Shown here piece by piece: positions 46,514 through 50,203 of a DNA stretch of 64,000 nucleotides; position 1 is the stretch's first letter, and the number at the start of each line of letters is the position of its first letter. This stretch comes from Nocardia amikacinitolerans NBRC 108937. Lineage in GTDB: Bacteria > Actinomycetota > Actinomycetes > Mycobacteriales > Mycobacteriaceae. The stretch is taken from assembly GCF_001612615.1 (NCBI RefSeq), contig NZ_BDAU01000008.1, positions 124,001 to 188,000 on the forward strand, given 5' to 3'. The notes beneath the pieces were generated by a model, which searched no databases, was not told where the DNA came from, and worked only from the letters and a program-made list of their open reading frames with translations. The translations under genes and the position numbers were made by a program.

Positions 46514-47470
46514 ATGGCTGAAGTACTTGTGCTCGTCGAGCACGCCGACGGTGCGATCAAGAAGGTCAGCACCGAACTGCTCACCGCCGCCCGCACCCTG
46601 GGCACCCCGGCCGCCGTCGTGCTCGGCGCCGCGGGCACCGGCGAGAAGCTGGCCGACGCGCTGGCCGCCGCGGGCGCCGAGAAGATCTACATCGCCGAGT
46701 CCGACGATGTGGAGAACTTCCTGGTGACCCCGAAGGTCGACGTGCTCGCGGGTCTGGTCGAGTCGGTGTCCCCGGCCGCCGTGATCGTCGCCGCCTCCGC
46801 CGAGGGCAAGGAGGTGTCGGGTCGCCTCGCCGCCCGCATCGGCTCCGGCCTGCTGGTCGACGTCATCGGCGTCAACGAGGACGGCTCCGTCGTGCACTCC
46901 ATCTTCGGTGGCGCCTTCACCGTCGACGCCAAGGCCACCGGCGACGTGCCGGTCATCTCGGTTCGCCCGGGTGCGGTCGAGGCCGTGGCGCAGGCCGGTG
47001 CCGGCGAAAAGGTGACCGTCGAGGTTCCCGCGCAGGAAGAGGGCGTCGTCAAGGTGACCTCGCGCGAGCCGGTCGTCGCTGGTGACCGTCCGGAGCTCAC
47101 CGAGGCGAACATCGTCGTCTCCGGTGGTCGCGGTGTCGGCTCGGCCGACAACTTCGCGGTCGTCGAGGCGCTGGCCGACTCGCTCGGCGCGGCCGTCGGC
47201 GCCTCGCGCGCCGCCGTCGACTCGGGCTACTACCCTGGCCAGTTCCAGGTCGGTCAGACCGGTAAGACGGTCTCCCCGCAGCTGTACATCGCCCTCGGCA
47301 TCTCCGGCGCCATCCAGCACCGCGCCGGCATGCAGACCTCGAAGACCATCATCGCGGTCAACAAGGACGAAGAGGCCCCGATCTTCGAGATCGCGGACTA
47401 CGGCATCGTCGGCGACCTCTTCAACGTCGCCCCGCAGCTCACCGAGGCCGTGAAGGCTCACAAGGGCTGA
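46514..47470 (+). CDS. etfA: Electron transfer flavoprotein alpha subunit
   Basis: 318 residues. The FAD-binding C-terminal half is clear: [101 protein letters not shown] with AGGAGAG upstream. The unit ends in a strong hairpin. Equivalent to Rv3028c, after which the M. tuberculosis order would continue directly with the GNAT gene found here at 51.8 kb. Confidence 0.97.
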
Positions 47471-47494
47471 AACCCCCTCGGCGAGTAGCTGTTA

Positions 47495-47530
47495 CGAACG
47501 ACCCCGGCTGGAAACAGCCGGGGTCGTTCG
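47495..47530 (+). terminator. Intrinsic terminator of etfBA
   Basis: 16-bp perfect stem (CGAACGACCCCGGCTG / CAGCCGGGGTCGTTCG) with a GAAA tetraloop, 24 bases after the etfA stop, followed by CGTTTCG. Confidence 0.88.
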
Positions 47531-47646
47531 CGTTTCGCTGCGGTGTTGGTGCGGGCTCCGCGATGCGCTACCGTGTGCCGGTCCGGTTCGGCGGGTGCAG
47601 GGGGTGCACGGCAATCGATGACAATGGCGGTCTGCCGACCGCGTTC

Positions 47647-48177
47647 ATGACTGAAATGCCCGACGACGGCGGGCTTCCGGTCAACGCCCGGCAGGAACAG
47701 TTCAGTCTCGCATTCGTGCGTATGATCGCCGCTGCCGCAGGGTGTTCGATCAAAAGCCACGAAACCGACTACGACGGTGTCGATATCACGATCGTGGCCT
47801 CGCGGGAGTATGAGAGATTCTATTGCCCTGAGTTCGAGCTGCAACTGAAGTGCACTACGCAACACAGCCGGCTCAAGGCAGATCATTTGGCTTGGCCTCT
47901 GGAAAAAGGTCCGTTCCTGAAACTGGTGAGCCCGAAGCGGTTCGTTCCTGCCCTGCTCGGCGTCCTGCTCATACCGGAGGAGCCTGACGAACTGCTCGAT
48001 CTGTCCGAGGCTGGCTTGACCAGCTCGAGCCGCATGTATTGGGAGTACGCGGCGAAGCTGGGCGGTATAGCGGACGGCAAGTCCAGCACGACAGTCCACC
48101 TACCCAGAAGTAACCTGTTCGATGTAGCCGGGCTCCAAGAGATCATGCACAGAATCGGCGAAGGAGGTCAGTGGTGA
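47647..48177 (+). CDS. DUF4365 protein, restriction-nuclease-like fold
   Basis: 176 residues from ATG 47647 (an ATG 28 codons upstream is possible; neither has a clear SD). N-terminal NARQEQFSLAFVRMIAAAAGCSI, then DYDGVDITI (D43, D46) and FELQLKC (Q66-x-K68), then FVPALLGVLLIPEEPDELLDL and VHLPRSNLFDVAGL. This is the DUF4365 pattern, related to the PD-(D/E)xK (Mrr-like) nuclease fold, with D46/Q66/K68 as candidate catalytic residues. It overlaps the next gene by 4 bases. Lower GC than neighbours and its location in a synteny break suggest acquisition. Confidence 0.8.
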   Translation: MTEMPDDGGLPVNARQEQFSLAFVRMIAAAAGCSIKSHETDYDGVDITIVASREYERFYCPEFELQLKCTTQHSRLKADHLAWPLEKGPFLKLVSPKRFVPALLGVLLIPEEPDELLDLSEAGLTSSSRMYWEYAAKLGGIADGKSSTTVHLPRSNLFDVAGLQEIMHRIGEGGQW

Positions 48178-49328
48178 AGGAGATTCCTGTCGGCGACCTT
48201 CGCGACATCGCGCTCGCCTTGTCGCCGCCAGCGGTATCGCAATACCTTGCCGCGCACGATTGGGAACTCGAGGCTCGCGTTCAGGATGTGAAAGAGATCT
48301 GGCGGCTGCCGGGCGAAGACGGTCCACTGGGTCGAATAATGTTGCCGCTCGCCACTGATTACGTGGACTTTCCCAGGCGCTTCCGAGAAACGATGCAAAC
48401 ACTCGCGACCATCTACGACTGGGACCCGGCGCAACTGGTCGAACGCATCGCCGCCGCACGTGCCGACCTGTTCTTCGTGCGACTCGACCAGGAAATGATC
48501 GACGGCACGATTCCCTTCCGGCAGGCGGAAACAACCTTGGAAGCTTTGTTCCGGATGATGAAGGCGGCCGCGACCACCGCGGACGATCCGACCCATTCGC
48601 ACCGAGGTCGTCGATCGGCCACCGTGACGGAATTCCTCGAGGAGAATATTCGTCTGGGGCATACCAAACGGGGCAGCTTCGTGTTCACGGTCGTCTCCCG
48701 CCTCGGTGATGGGATGTCCACGGAGACAGATGGAAAGCCGCAGGTGTCATTCCCCCGGGCGGCGATGGCGACGCTCGCCAAGGGCTTGCAATCGACGCGC
48801 ACGCTGGCGTTGCAGTGGGACGATCGCGCTCTGGAGCGCTCCGGCGAGTTGGGATTGAGTGCCAACTTGGTGGAGTCGGTCTGGGACCTCACTCAGTCGC
48901 CGGACTTACGGGCGTTGGACCTGTCGTTCGATTGGGCAGCGGGCGAGCCGGCGCCGACGCTGGAAAGTTCACGGATCGTCATCGATCGTGACGCGATGGC
49001 TGGATTGCCGCGGGTGCGTGAGCGCTTGGTTCGCAGTGAGGAACCGCCGCGGTACGAATCATTACTGGGTATCGTCCGAACGTTGAACCGTGACGACCTT
49101 GGGGACGGGGGCGAGGAGGCCACCAGCATTGTCCTGTCCACACACGTAGACGGACGCTCGCGGAAGGTCCATGTTCCGCTGGCCGGTACCGACTACGAAT
49201 GGGCGATCGCCGCACACCAGTCCAAGAGGCCGCTCGTGGTTTCCGGGAATCTGTCGTTCGAACGGGGGGCTTGGCGTCTGACCGGCGATATCACTGTGGA
49301 CCGCAGGCTTTCGGAGCGTTCCAGCTGA
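48174..49328 (+). CDS. Unknown protein coupled to the DUF4365 gene
   Basis: 384 residues, GTG 48174 with AAGGAGGT 5 bases upstream, inside the end of the DUF4365 gene (GTGA overlap). I do not recognise a named family. Seen: an N-terminal segment with YLAAHDWELEARVQDVKEIWRL and FPRRFRETMQTLATIYDWDPAQLVERIAAARAD (to ~100), a central SATVTEFLEENIRLGHTKRGSFVFTV, and a C-terminal part rich in beta-like sequence (STHVDGRSRKVHVPLAGTDYEWAIAAHQSKRPLVVSGNL). No signal peptide or membrane helix. The strict coupling implies it works with the nuclease-like protein, for example as a sensor or partner; this is inference. Confidence 0.65.
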   Translation: MKEIPVGDLRDIALALSPPAVSQYLAAHDWELEARVQDVKEIWRLPGEDGPLGRIMLPLATDYVDFPRRFRETMQTLATIYDWDPAQLVERIAAARADLFFVRLDQEMIDGTIPFRQAETTLEALFRMMKAAATTADDPTHSHRGRRSATVTEFLEENIRLGHTKRGSFVFTVVSRLGDGMSTETDGKPQVSFPRAAMATLAKGLQSTRTLALQWDDRALERSGELGLSANLVESVWDLTQSPDLRALDLSFDWAAGEPAPTLESSRIVIDRDAMAGLPRVRERLVRSEEPPRYESLLGIVRTLNRDDLGDGGEEATSIVLSTHVDGRSRKVHVPLAGTDYEWAIAAHQSKRPLVVSGNLSFERGAWRLTGDITVDRRLSERSS

Positions 49329-49345
49329 CACCTCACCGCATTCGG

Positions 49346-50203
49346 TCAGCTGCTGTGCAACGTGGTGAGCAAGGTGGTGAGGATGGGGGAGCGGCGGGTG
49401 TCGTCGCGGAGGACGGCGCAGACGGGGATGCGGAGGCGGTGTTCGGCGAGTTGGAGGACGACGAGTCCTTCGGTGGGGCTCTGGGCGTAGAGGACGGTCC
49501 ACGCTTCGGGGCGGTTGATCAGTTCCATGGTCGCGGTGTGGTCGGGCGGGATCGGCGGGCCGAAGGTGGGGCCGACGGGCAGGTCGGCGAAGGCGCTGCG
49601 AATGATGTTGTGCAGCAGCACCTGTTCCTGTTCGGGCGGCAGCAGCAGCGGGTAGGAACTGAGGTCGTTGAGGGTGACGGTGTCGCGGGTGGCCAGCGGA
49701 TGATTGCTCGAGGTGGCGATCACGAGATCCTCGACCCAGAGCTGTTCCACCATCAGCCCCGGCTGGTCGACGCGCCCGCGGATCAGCGCGAGATCGCAGT
49801 CTCCGTCCGCGACGGCCGTGATGCGTTGGCGGAAGGGCTTGATCACGAACTCGATCTCCGCGTCCGGGTGCGCGGCGCGCGCGGCCGCGATGGCGGACAG
49901 CGAGCGGCTCGCGAAGGACATGTTGGCCGCCAGCCGGATTCGCGGCCCGGAGGCCCGAACCGCCGCGCGGATGGCGGATTCCAGGCTCAGCATCTGCTTA
50001 GCGAGGGGAAGTAGCCGGGTGGTCGCGTCGGTGGGGACGACGGCCCTGGTAGAGCGCTCGAACAGCGGCACGCCGAGGTCGCGTTCGAGCCGGGCGATCT
50101 GATGACTGATCGCCGACTGCGAGATGAAACATCGGGCCGCGGCCCTGCTGAAGCTCAGTTCTTCGCAGACCGCGACGAAGTACGCCAGCTGCCGAAGCTC
50201 CAC
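49346..50203 (-). CDS. LysR-family transcriptional regulator
   Basis: 285 residues. N-terminal HTH MELRQLAYFVAVCEELSFSRAAARCFISQSAISHQIARLERDLGVPLFERS and a substrate-binding domain (IRLAANMSFASRSLSAIAAARAAHPDAEIEFV ... GDCDLALIRGRVD). GTG with AGGAGC upstream. Divergent from ndh with a 112-base gap, so it probably controls ndh. Its stop converges on the DUF4365-module gene with 17 bases between. Confidence 0.93.
   Translation of the reverse strand: MELRQLAYFVAVCEELSFSRAAARCFISQSAISHQIARLERDLGVPLFERSTRAVVPTDATTRLLPLAKQMLSLESAIRAAVRASGPRIRLAANMSFASRSLSAIAAARAAHPDAEIEFVIKPFRQRITAVADGDCDLALIRGRVDQPGLMVEQLWVEDLVIATSSNHPLATRDTVTLNDLSSYPLLLPPEQEQVLLHNIIRSAFADLPVGPTFGPPIPPDHTATMELINRPEAWTVLYAQSPTEGLVVLQLAEHRLRIPVCAVLRDDTRRSPILTTLLTTLHSS

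Follow-up and report, generated by a model that had tools for sequence, protein, structure and literature searches.

A Nocardia gene pair of the candidate system PDC-M02: a predicted DREN-like nuclease and an OB-fold partner as a possible two-gene anti-phage module

What is the function of two overlapping, comparatively GC-poor genes that interrupt a conserved gene order next to etfA in Nocardia amikacinitolerans NBRC 108937, and do they form a system not described so far? The pair, here called genes A and B, lies in a stretch of 64,000 nucleotides (contig NZ_BDAU01000008.1, positions 124,001 to 188,000), which we analysed as a whole and call the window. A first-pass annotation, made from the sequence alone, had named the pair the best candidate for an undescribed system in the window. 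Our analysis indicates near certain membership of PDC-M02, which PADLOC-DB already lists as a candidate system, so the pair is not undescribed. We read it, with a probability of roughly 0.5, as a two-gene candidate anti-phage module in which a DREN-like nuclease (A) is switched on by an OB-fold partner that senses single-stranded DNA (B). Some role in defence is likely, and for the mechanism, a DREN-type nuclease governed by a single-stranded DNA-sensing OB-fold protein, the odds are about even.

Identity and predicted folds of the two proteins

The genes and their predicted functional parts are located as follows (window coordinates).

47608..48177, + strand: gene A, predicted DUF4365 / DREN-like PD-(D/E)xK nuclease, PDC-M02A; homologous start near 47608
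47782..47850, + strand: predicted active site of A, with D58 (47782-47784), Q78 (47842-47844) and K80 (47848-47850) in the numbering of the 188-residue protein
48174..49328, + strand: gene B, PDC-M02B, 384 residues (385 from 48171)
49044..49325, + strand: predicted C-terminal OB-fold domain of B, SSB/PriB-like, residues 292-385 counted from 48171

The PADLOC models match both genes, which rules out an undescribed family or system. Residues 29-204 of A cover the full PDC-M02A model (E = 3.2e-76), and the product of the adjoining gene B matches nearly the whole of PDC-M02B (E = 2e-168). The two matches stand side by side, and no difference from PDC-M02 was found; the pairs of Pseudomonas fulva and of an M. 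abscessus prophage match too. Protein B, which had been taken for a protein of no known family, thus falls in a catalogued one, with no Pfam match above the cut-off, and neither A nor B matches NCBIfam. According to PMC12988326, PADLOC's PDC systems stem from a 'guilt-by-embedding' search, and most of them still await validation. A full-text literature search for 'PDC-M02' returned no paper with the term, and literature searches yielded no report of antiviral activity for the pair.

Protein A had been recognised as a DUF4365 protein with a PD-(D/E)xK-like D...QxK motif, and this holds. It matches Pfam DUF4365 (PF14280, E = 3.2e-11), and D58, Q78 and K80 are invariant across an alignment of 56 rows. 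In a predicted model of the whole protein, as was also made for B, the best structural relatives of A are SPARDA DREN effectors; Hjc resolvases are the second-best fold relatives, and EcoRV matches rank below SPARDA. The triad corresponds to D41/Q60/K62 of SPARDA DREN as given in an excerpt of PMC12205087. A DREN-type PD-(D/E)xK fold, as predicted, and the D-Q-K catalytic set are therefore both present in a protein whose sequence stops after the nuclease domain. A sequence search of the PDB with the A alignment gave no hits. SPARDA consists of a short Argonaute and a DREN (DUF4365)-APAZ protein, and the likeness to it lies in the predicted fold and the catalytic set of A. In contrast to SPARDA, neither A nor B has an Argonaute or APAZ match in Pfam, A is partnered by a 384-residue protein ending in a predicted OB fold, and the neighbours are etfA and a LysR gene.

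Two further observations concern A and its family. In one otherwise whole pair (locus L007, genome G125), the catalytic lysine is replaced, which suggests an inactive nuclease there. A second DUF4365 domain is encoded in the genome of the window at G000:C59:29440-29859 (L181:616-3426, minus strand), near the start of a 937-residue protein with weak HEAT and TPR matches below the cut-off.

For B, the predicted model gives moderate scores for the C-terminal OB fold (residues 292-385) against SilF (Z = 9.2), SSB (8.6) and PriB (8.6), and no fold was assigned to the N-terminal and middle parts from this whole-protein model. A PDB sequence search with the B alignment returned only seven weak hits (E 0.14 or worse), and a scan of viral contigs with the same alignment confirmed no relative.

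Co-occurrence, spread and the Druantia neighbourhood

The partnership of the two genes is strict. A match to A lies directly upstream of B in 48 of 50 loci from named genomes, A being split between frames in four, and the two loci without it are from Nocardia. Across the order, B occurs in 16 of 397 genomes and in 12 of 85 genera, counting the genome of the window, and all 17 loci of the 15 other B-bearing genomes have an A match directly upstream, with identity down to 24%. B is thus not a gene that usually occurs without DUF4365. In addition, pairwise distances of A and B are closely correlated (r = 0.95 over 69 pairs), and none of 2000 permutations reached as high a value. At the level of the class, 15 of 394 genomes are positive. 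The patchy spread rules out vertical conservation across the order, and etfA was not seen beside the pair in any of 39 non-Nocardia loci. B is also carried on 13 of 72,556 plasmid records, and a pair lies at the very end of the M. abscessus prophage record (L161:398-2160).

A link to a known defence system comes from ten of the 39 non-Nocardia loci, nine from Streptomyces and one from Kitasatospora. Their gene order is a gene for an 851-residue protein, DruD, DruE, A and B, with DruA and an MzaB-like ATPase gene on the opposite strand, so that the pair sits between the DruE and DruA genes of Druantia type I. PADLOC typing of one such locus (L137) gave DruD1, DruE1, DruA1 and MzaB and no match for the 851-residue protein. 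The window differs in this respect: etfA and a LysR gene stand on either side of its pair, and neither DruA nor DruE lies beside it. To our knowledge, published Druantia type I gene lists do not include the pair. The B copies of the Druantia loci form one clade (support 100/99), and the embedding was therefore likely one event. Among 199 Streptomyces genomes sampled, the Druantia-type B was found in five and this DruA (E 1e-60 or better) in five; they are the same five genomes, with the two genes 0.2-1.6 kb apart and DruA broken in one. PMC12458937 reports predicted inactivated nuclease domains in the Druantia helicases of types I and II, and according to PMC13192584 type III DruE engages intermediates of single-stranded DNA. 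This leads us to infer that Druantia type I could gain an active nuclease from the pair, and that some Streptomyces loci of this type may use one. In Pseudomonas fulva, HsdR-like and Schlafen-AlbA genes lie 4-9 kb from the pair.

Possible roles of the pair

How might such a pair work? In the anti-phage reading, A would be silent alone, like the DREN domain of SPARDA. The SSB-like OB fold of B would bind single-stranded DNA exposed on invading or damaged replicons and assemble A on it into an active form, which would then cut the invader or the DNA of the infected cell. The pair would act alone in Nocardia; in Streptomyces, the single strands could come from the Druantia helicase DruE, with the pair contributing the active nuclease. 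This gives the PDC-M02 candidate a testable mechanism and ties an effector nuclease of the SPARDA type to a partner without Argonaute. A wider version is possible but doubtful. It takes the pair as a portable nuclease cartridge sensing single-stranded DNA, found alone in Nocardia, on plasmids and in prophages, and built into Streptomyces Druantia type I, where it would replace the nuclease reportedly lost from DruE; if so, an effector fold of short Argonaute systems would serve without Argonaute or guide RNA.

The immediate neighbourhoods speak against a defence function. In a Pfam scan of 78 genes (of 227 listed) from 14 loci, L137 and 13 non-Druantia loci, the 25 families listed are mostly metabolic or regulatory and include three DEAD and two ResIII helicase hits. 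Among the PADLOC families listed, each accounts for at most four neighbour genes, mainly through PD-T4-6/mad6 models, and these matches likely reflect protein kinases. The first-pass suggestion of a small acquired defence or toxin-type system therefore stands in part. A nuclease-type acquired defence module agrees with the PDC-M02 matches, the SPARDA-DREN-like A, the Druantia embedding, the carriage on plasmids and a prophage and the occurrence in 16 of 397 genomes; the mostly metabolic and regulatory neighbours do not fit it, and the insertion is not a fresh one (see below).

Other functions have to be weighed against the same data. The pair could be toxin-antitoxin-like, with A a toxic nuclease and B its neutraliser, the OB domain binding A or DNA, in the service of addiction or abortive infection. 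A small overlapping pair with a strict partner and a single fixed order would suit this, and so would its record at 81 etfA loci, namely the window and 80 of 148 others, mostly the most similar ones (two of them, L059 and L080, extend no more than 1.6 and 1.2 kb beyond etfA). Decay is frequent there: 13 loci have both genes whole (counting L032, whose B is a few residues short at its end), parts or remnants are left in 11, and 57 have no trace, as judged by tblastn with A and B of the window at a cut-off of 1e-4, so that traces remain in 24 of 81. B persists without intact A in two Nocardia genomes (L099 and, truncated, L043), and intact A without B was not seen at these loci. We nevertheless regard a toxin-antitoxin function as rather unlikely, given the A-only remnants in L070 and L074, the embedding in Druantia type I, which points to defence, and the size of B, which is far larger than the usual antitoxin.

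A restriction-like system, in which the N-terminal and middle part of B would recognise modified or specific DNA and A would cut there, as in a two-component modification-dependent enzyme, appears improbable. A solitary PD-(D/E)xK nuclease that stands between etfA and LysR beside a partner of DNA-binding type would be in keeping with it, as would the absence of any methyltransferase family match in the pair, the place of EcoRV among the structural matches of A and the GHT..GS signature conserved at residues 163-169, midway along B. However, the best structural relatives of A are the non-specific SPARDA effectors, with EcoRV ranked after them, and Pfam and NCBIfam matched no known modified-base reader domain in B. 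Very improbable is an accessory role in DNA repair without defence, by an SSB-like protein and a nuclease that processes junctions or flaps. The SSB/PriB-like OB fold, the Hjc resolvases among the relatives of A and the mixed, mostly metabolic neighbour families could be accommodated, but a spread as patchy as 16 of 397 genomes in the order and 15 of 394 in the class is unlike that of a repair gene, and so are plasmid and prophage carriage, repeated loss and the Druantia embedding.

The etfA-LysR interval in Nocardia

The borders of the insertion and the putative expression signals upstream of A are as follows.

46514..47470, + strand: etfA, bordering the insertion on the left; a backbone gene at each of the 81 loci compared, which were chosen by etfA
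47500..47525, + strand: GC-rich inverted repeat (hairpin) after etfA, read from the sequence
47568..47574, + strand: CTA[CG]NGT element, -10-like, upstream of A
49346..50203, - strand: LysR-type regulator gene, right border of the insertion

The backbone order in Nocardia is etfA, a variable interval, LysR, an NADH dehydrogenase gene and olsB. The pair had been placed between etfA and the OlsB-like gene, which is accurate on the etfA side; on the right, the LysR and NADH dehydrogenase genes come before the OlsB-like gene. Three other structural claims made at first sight hold up. The synteny break is evident from the etfA-LysR gap: 1878 bp separate the two genes in the window, against 178-179 bp in L031 and L033, near relatives that lack the pair. 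The two genes overlap, in keeping with translational coupling: A stops at 48177, B may start at GTG 48171 or 48174, and close homologues begin at the equivalent of 48174, giving 384 residues and a 4-nt overlap with the end of A. Lower GC content is seen in total (A 58.4%, B 62.6%, against 66.7-70.2% in five neighbours) and at third positions (0.71 and 0.74, against 0.885-0.912).

When did the pair arrive? B is found in 35 of 150 Nocardia genomes, remnants and distant copies counted. In a quick backbone tree of 70 loci (11 of the 81, including the remnants L058 and L068, had too few backbone genes and were dropped), the 22 placed loci that show a trace of the pair all fall in one branch of 42 rows (support 90) and none among the other 28. 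In a tree of B, from which 12 loci repeating genomes and rows under 330 residues were dropped (a few repeats remained), 15 near-whole proteins from the etfA site form one set of 16 (100/98) together with L164, from another family of the order, and this set adjoins copies from Streptoalloteichus and other Pseudonocardiaceae. Because traces are confined to one branch and the B copies form one set, the pair was probably acquired from another family by an ancestor of this Nocardia clade, with many losses since; L164 leaves room for later exchange. A pair kept at the etfA site with many losses in one clade is therefore no fresh insertion.

Intact copies are under purifying selection, with ratios of nonsynonymous to synonymous divergence of 0.05-0.20 in seven comparisons. 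Between the window and G026, synonymous divergence of the pair is 0.28-0.43, against 0.07-0.13 in neighbours, which hints at exchange of the cassette; in six other comparisons, the value for the pair is at most about 1.6 times the highest one of the backbone. A swap of the etfA tail along with the pair was rejected, since 100-nt identity profiles of etfA and LysR between pair-bearing loci and empty sisters gave no consistent break, with a dip at the etfA end only in the window against L031 and L033.

The hairpin probably separates etfA from the pair, to judge by the sequence, and similar ones can be read after etfA in most other loci displayed. Of 14 Nocardia copies, 13 have the CTA[CG]NGT element at comparable spacing upstream of A; 88 out of 1000 shuffled sequences contain one. 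The element is likely part of a promoter of the pair's own. A scan for sigma-70 consensus promoters and terminators found nothing, the hairpin included. Near 47608, where the other Nocardia copies compared have a ribosome-binding-like stretch followed by a standard start codon, the window lacks such a codon; its A frame is open from 47563 and the next in-frame ATG is at 47647, ahead of the folded domain. Lower production of A, or a shortened A, may result.

A second, distant PDC-M02 lineage (B 38-40% identical) occurs in six Nocardia genomes (L017-L022), in stretches where none of the window's backbone genes was hit; A lies beside B in five, and the stretch of L021 ends too early to show A.

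The interval itself is variable, with an etfA-LysR gap of 59 to 9528 bp across the 72 loci with both genes in range. A scan of 103 interval genes (of 146 listed) matched 34 Pfam families, and the 25 most frequent of these include no integrase. In L046, L049, L060, L062, L067 and L073, and also in L058, L068, L070, L075 and L077, stretches of about 23-208 nt repeat part of the etfA 3' end in direct orientation, with 80-100% identity, either past the pair or next to what remains of it; they resemble scars of insertions at the etfA end, and their left ends vary. Uma2-type putative nucleases account for 11 of the 103 genes and stand directly 3' of etfA in L035, L038 and L077, which makes this a site for putative nuclease genes of a second kind as well. 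Like the pair, these members of a putative restriction endonuclease family occupy the interval after etfA, but they belong to PF05685 and lack the partner B. Other frequent occupants are APH_6_hur-type kinases (15), Meth_synt_2 (14), PadR regulators (7) and ABC transporter genes (6). With its full, decayed and empty sites, the etfA-LysR interval offers a natural series for gauging the rate at which a defence module is lost.
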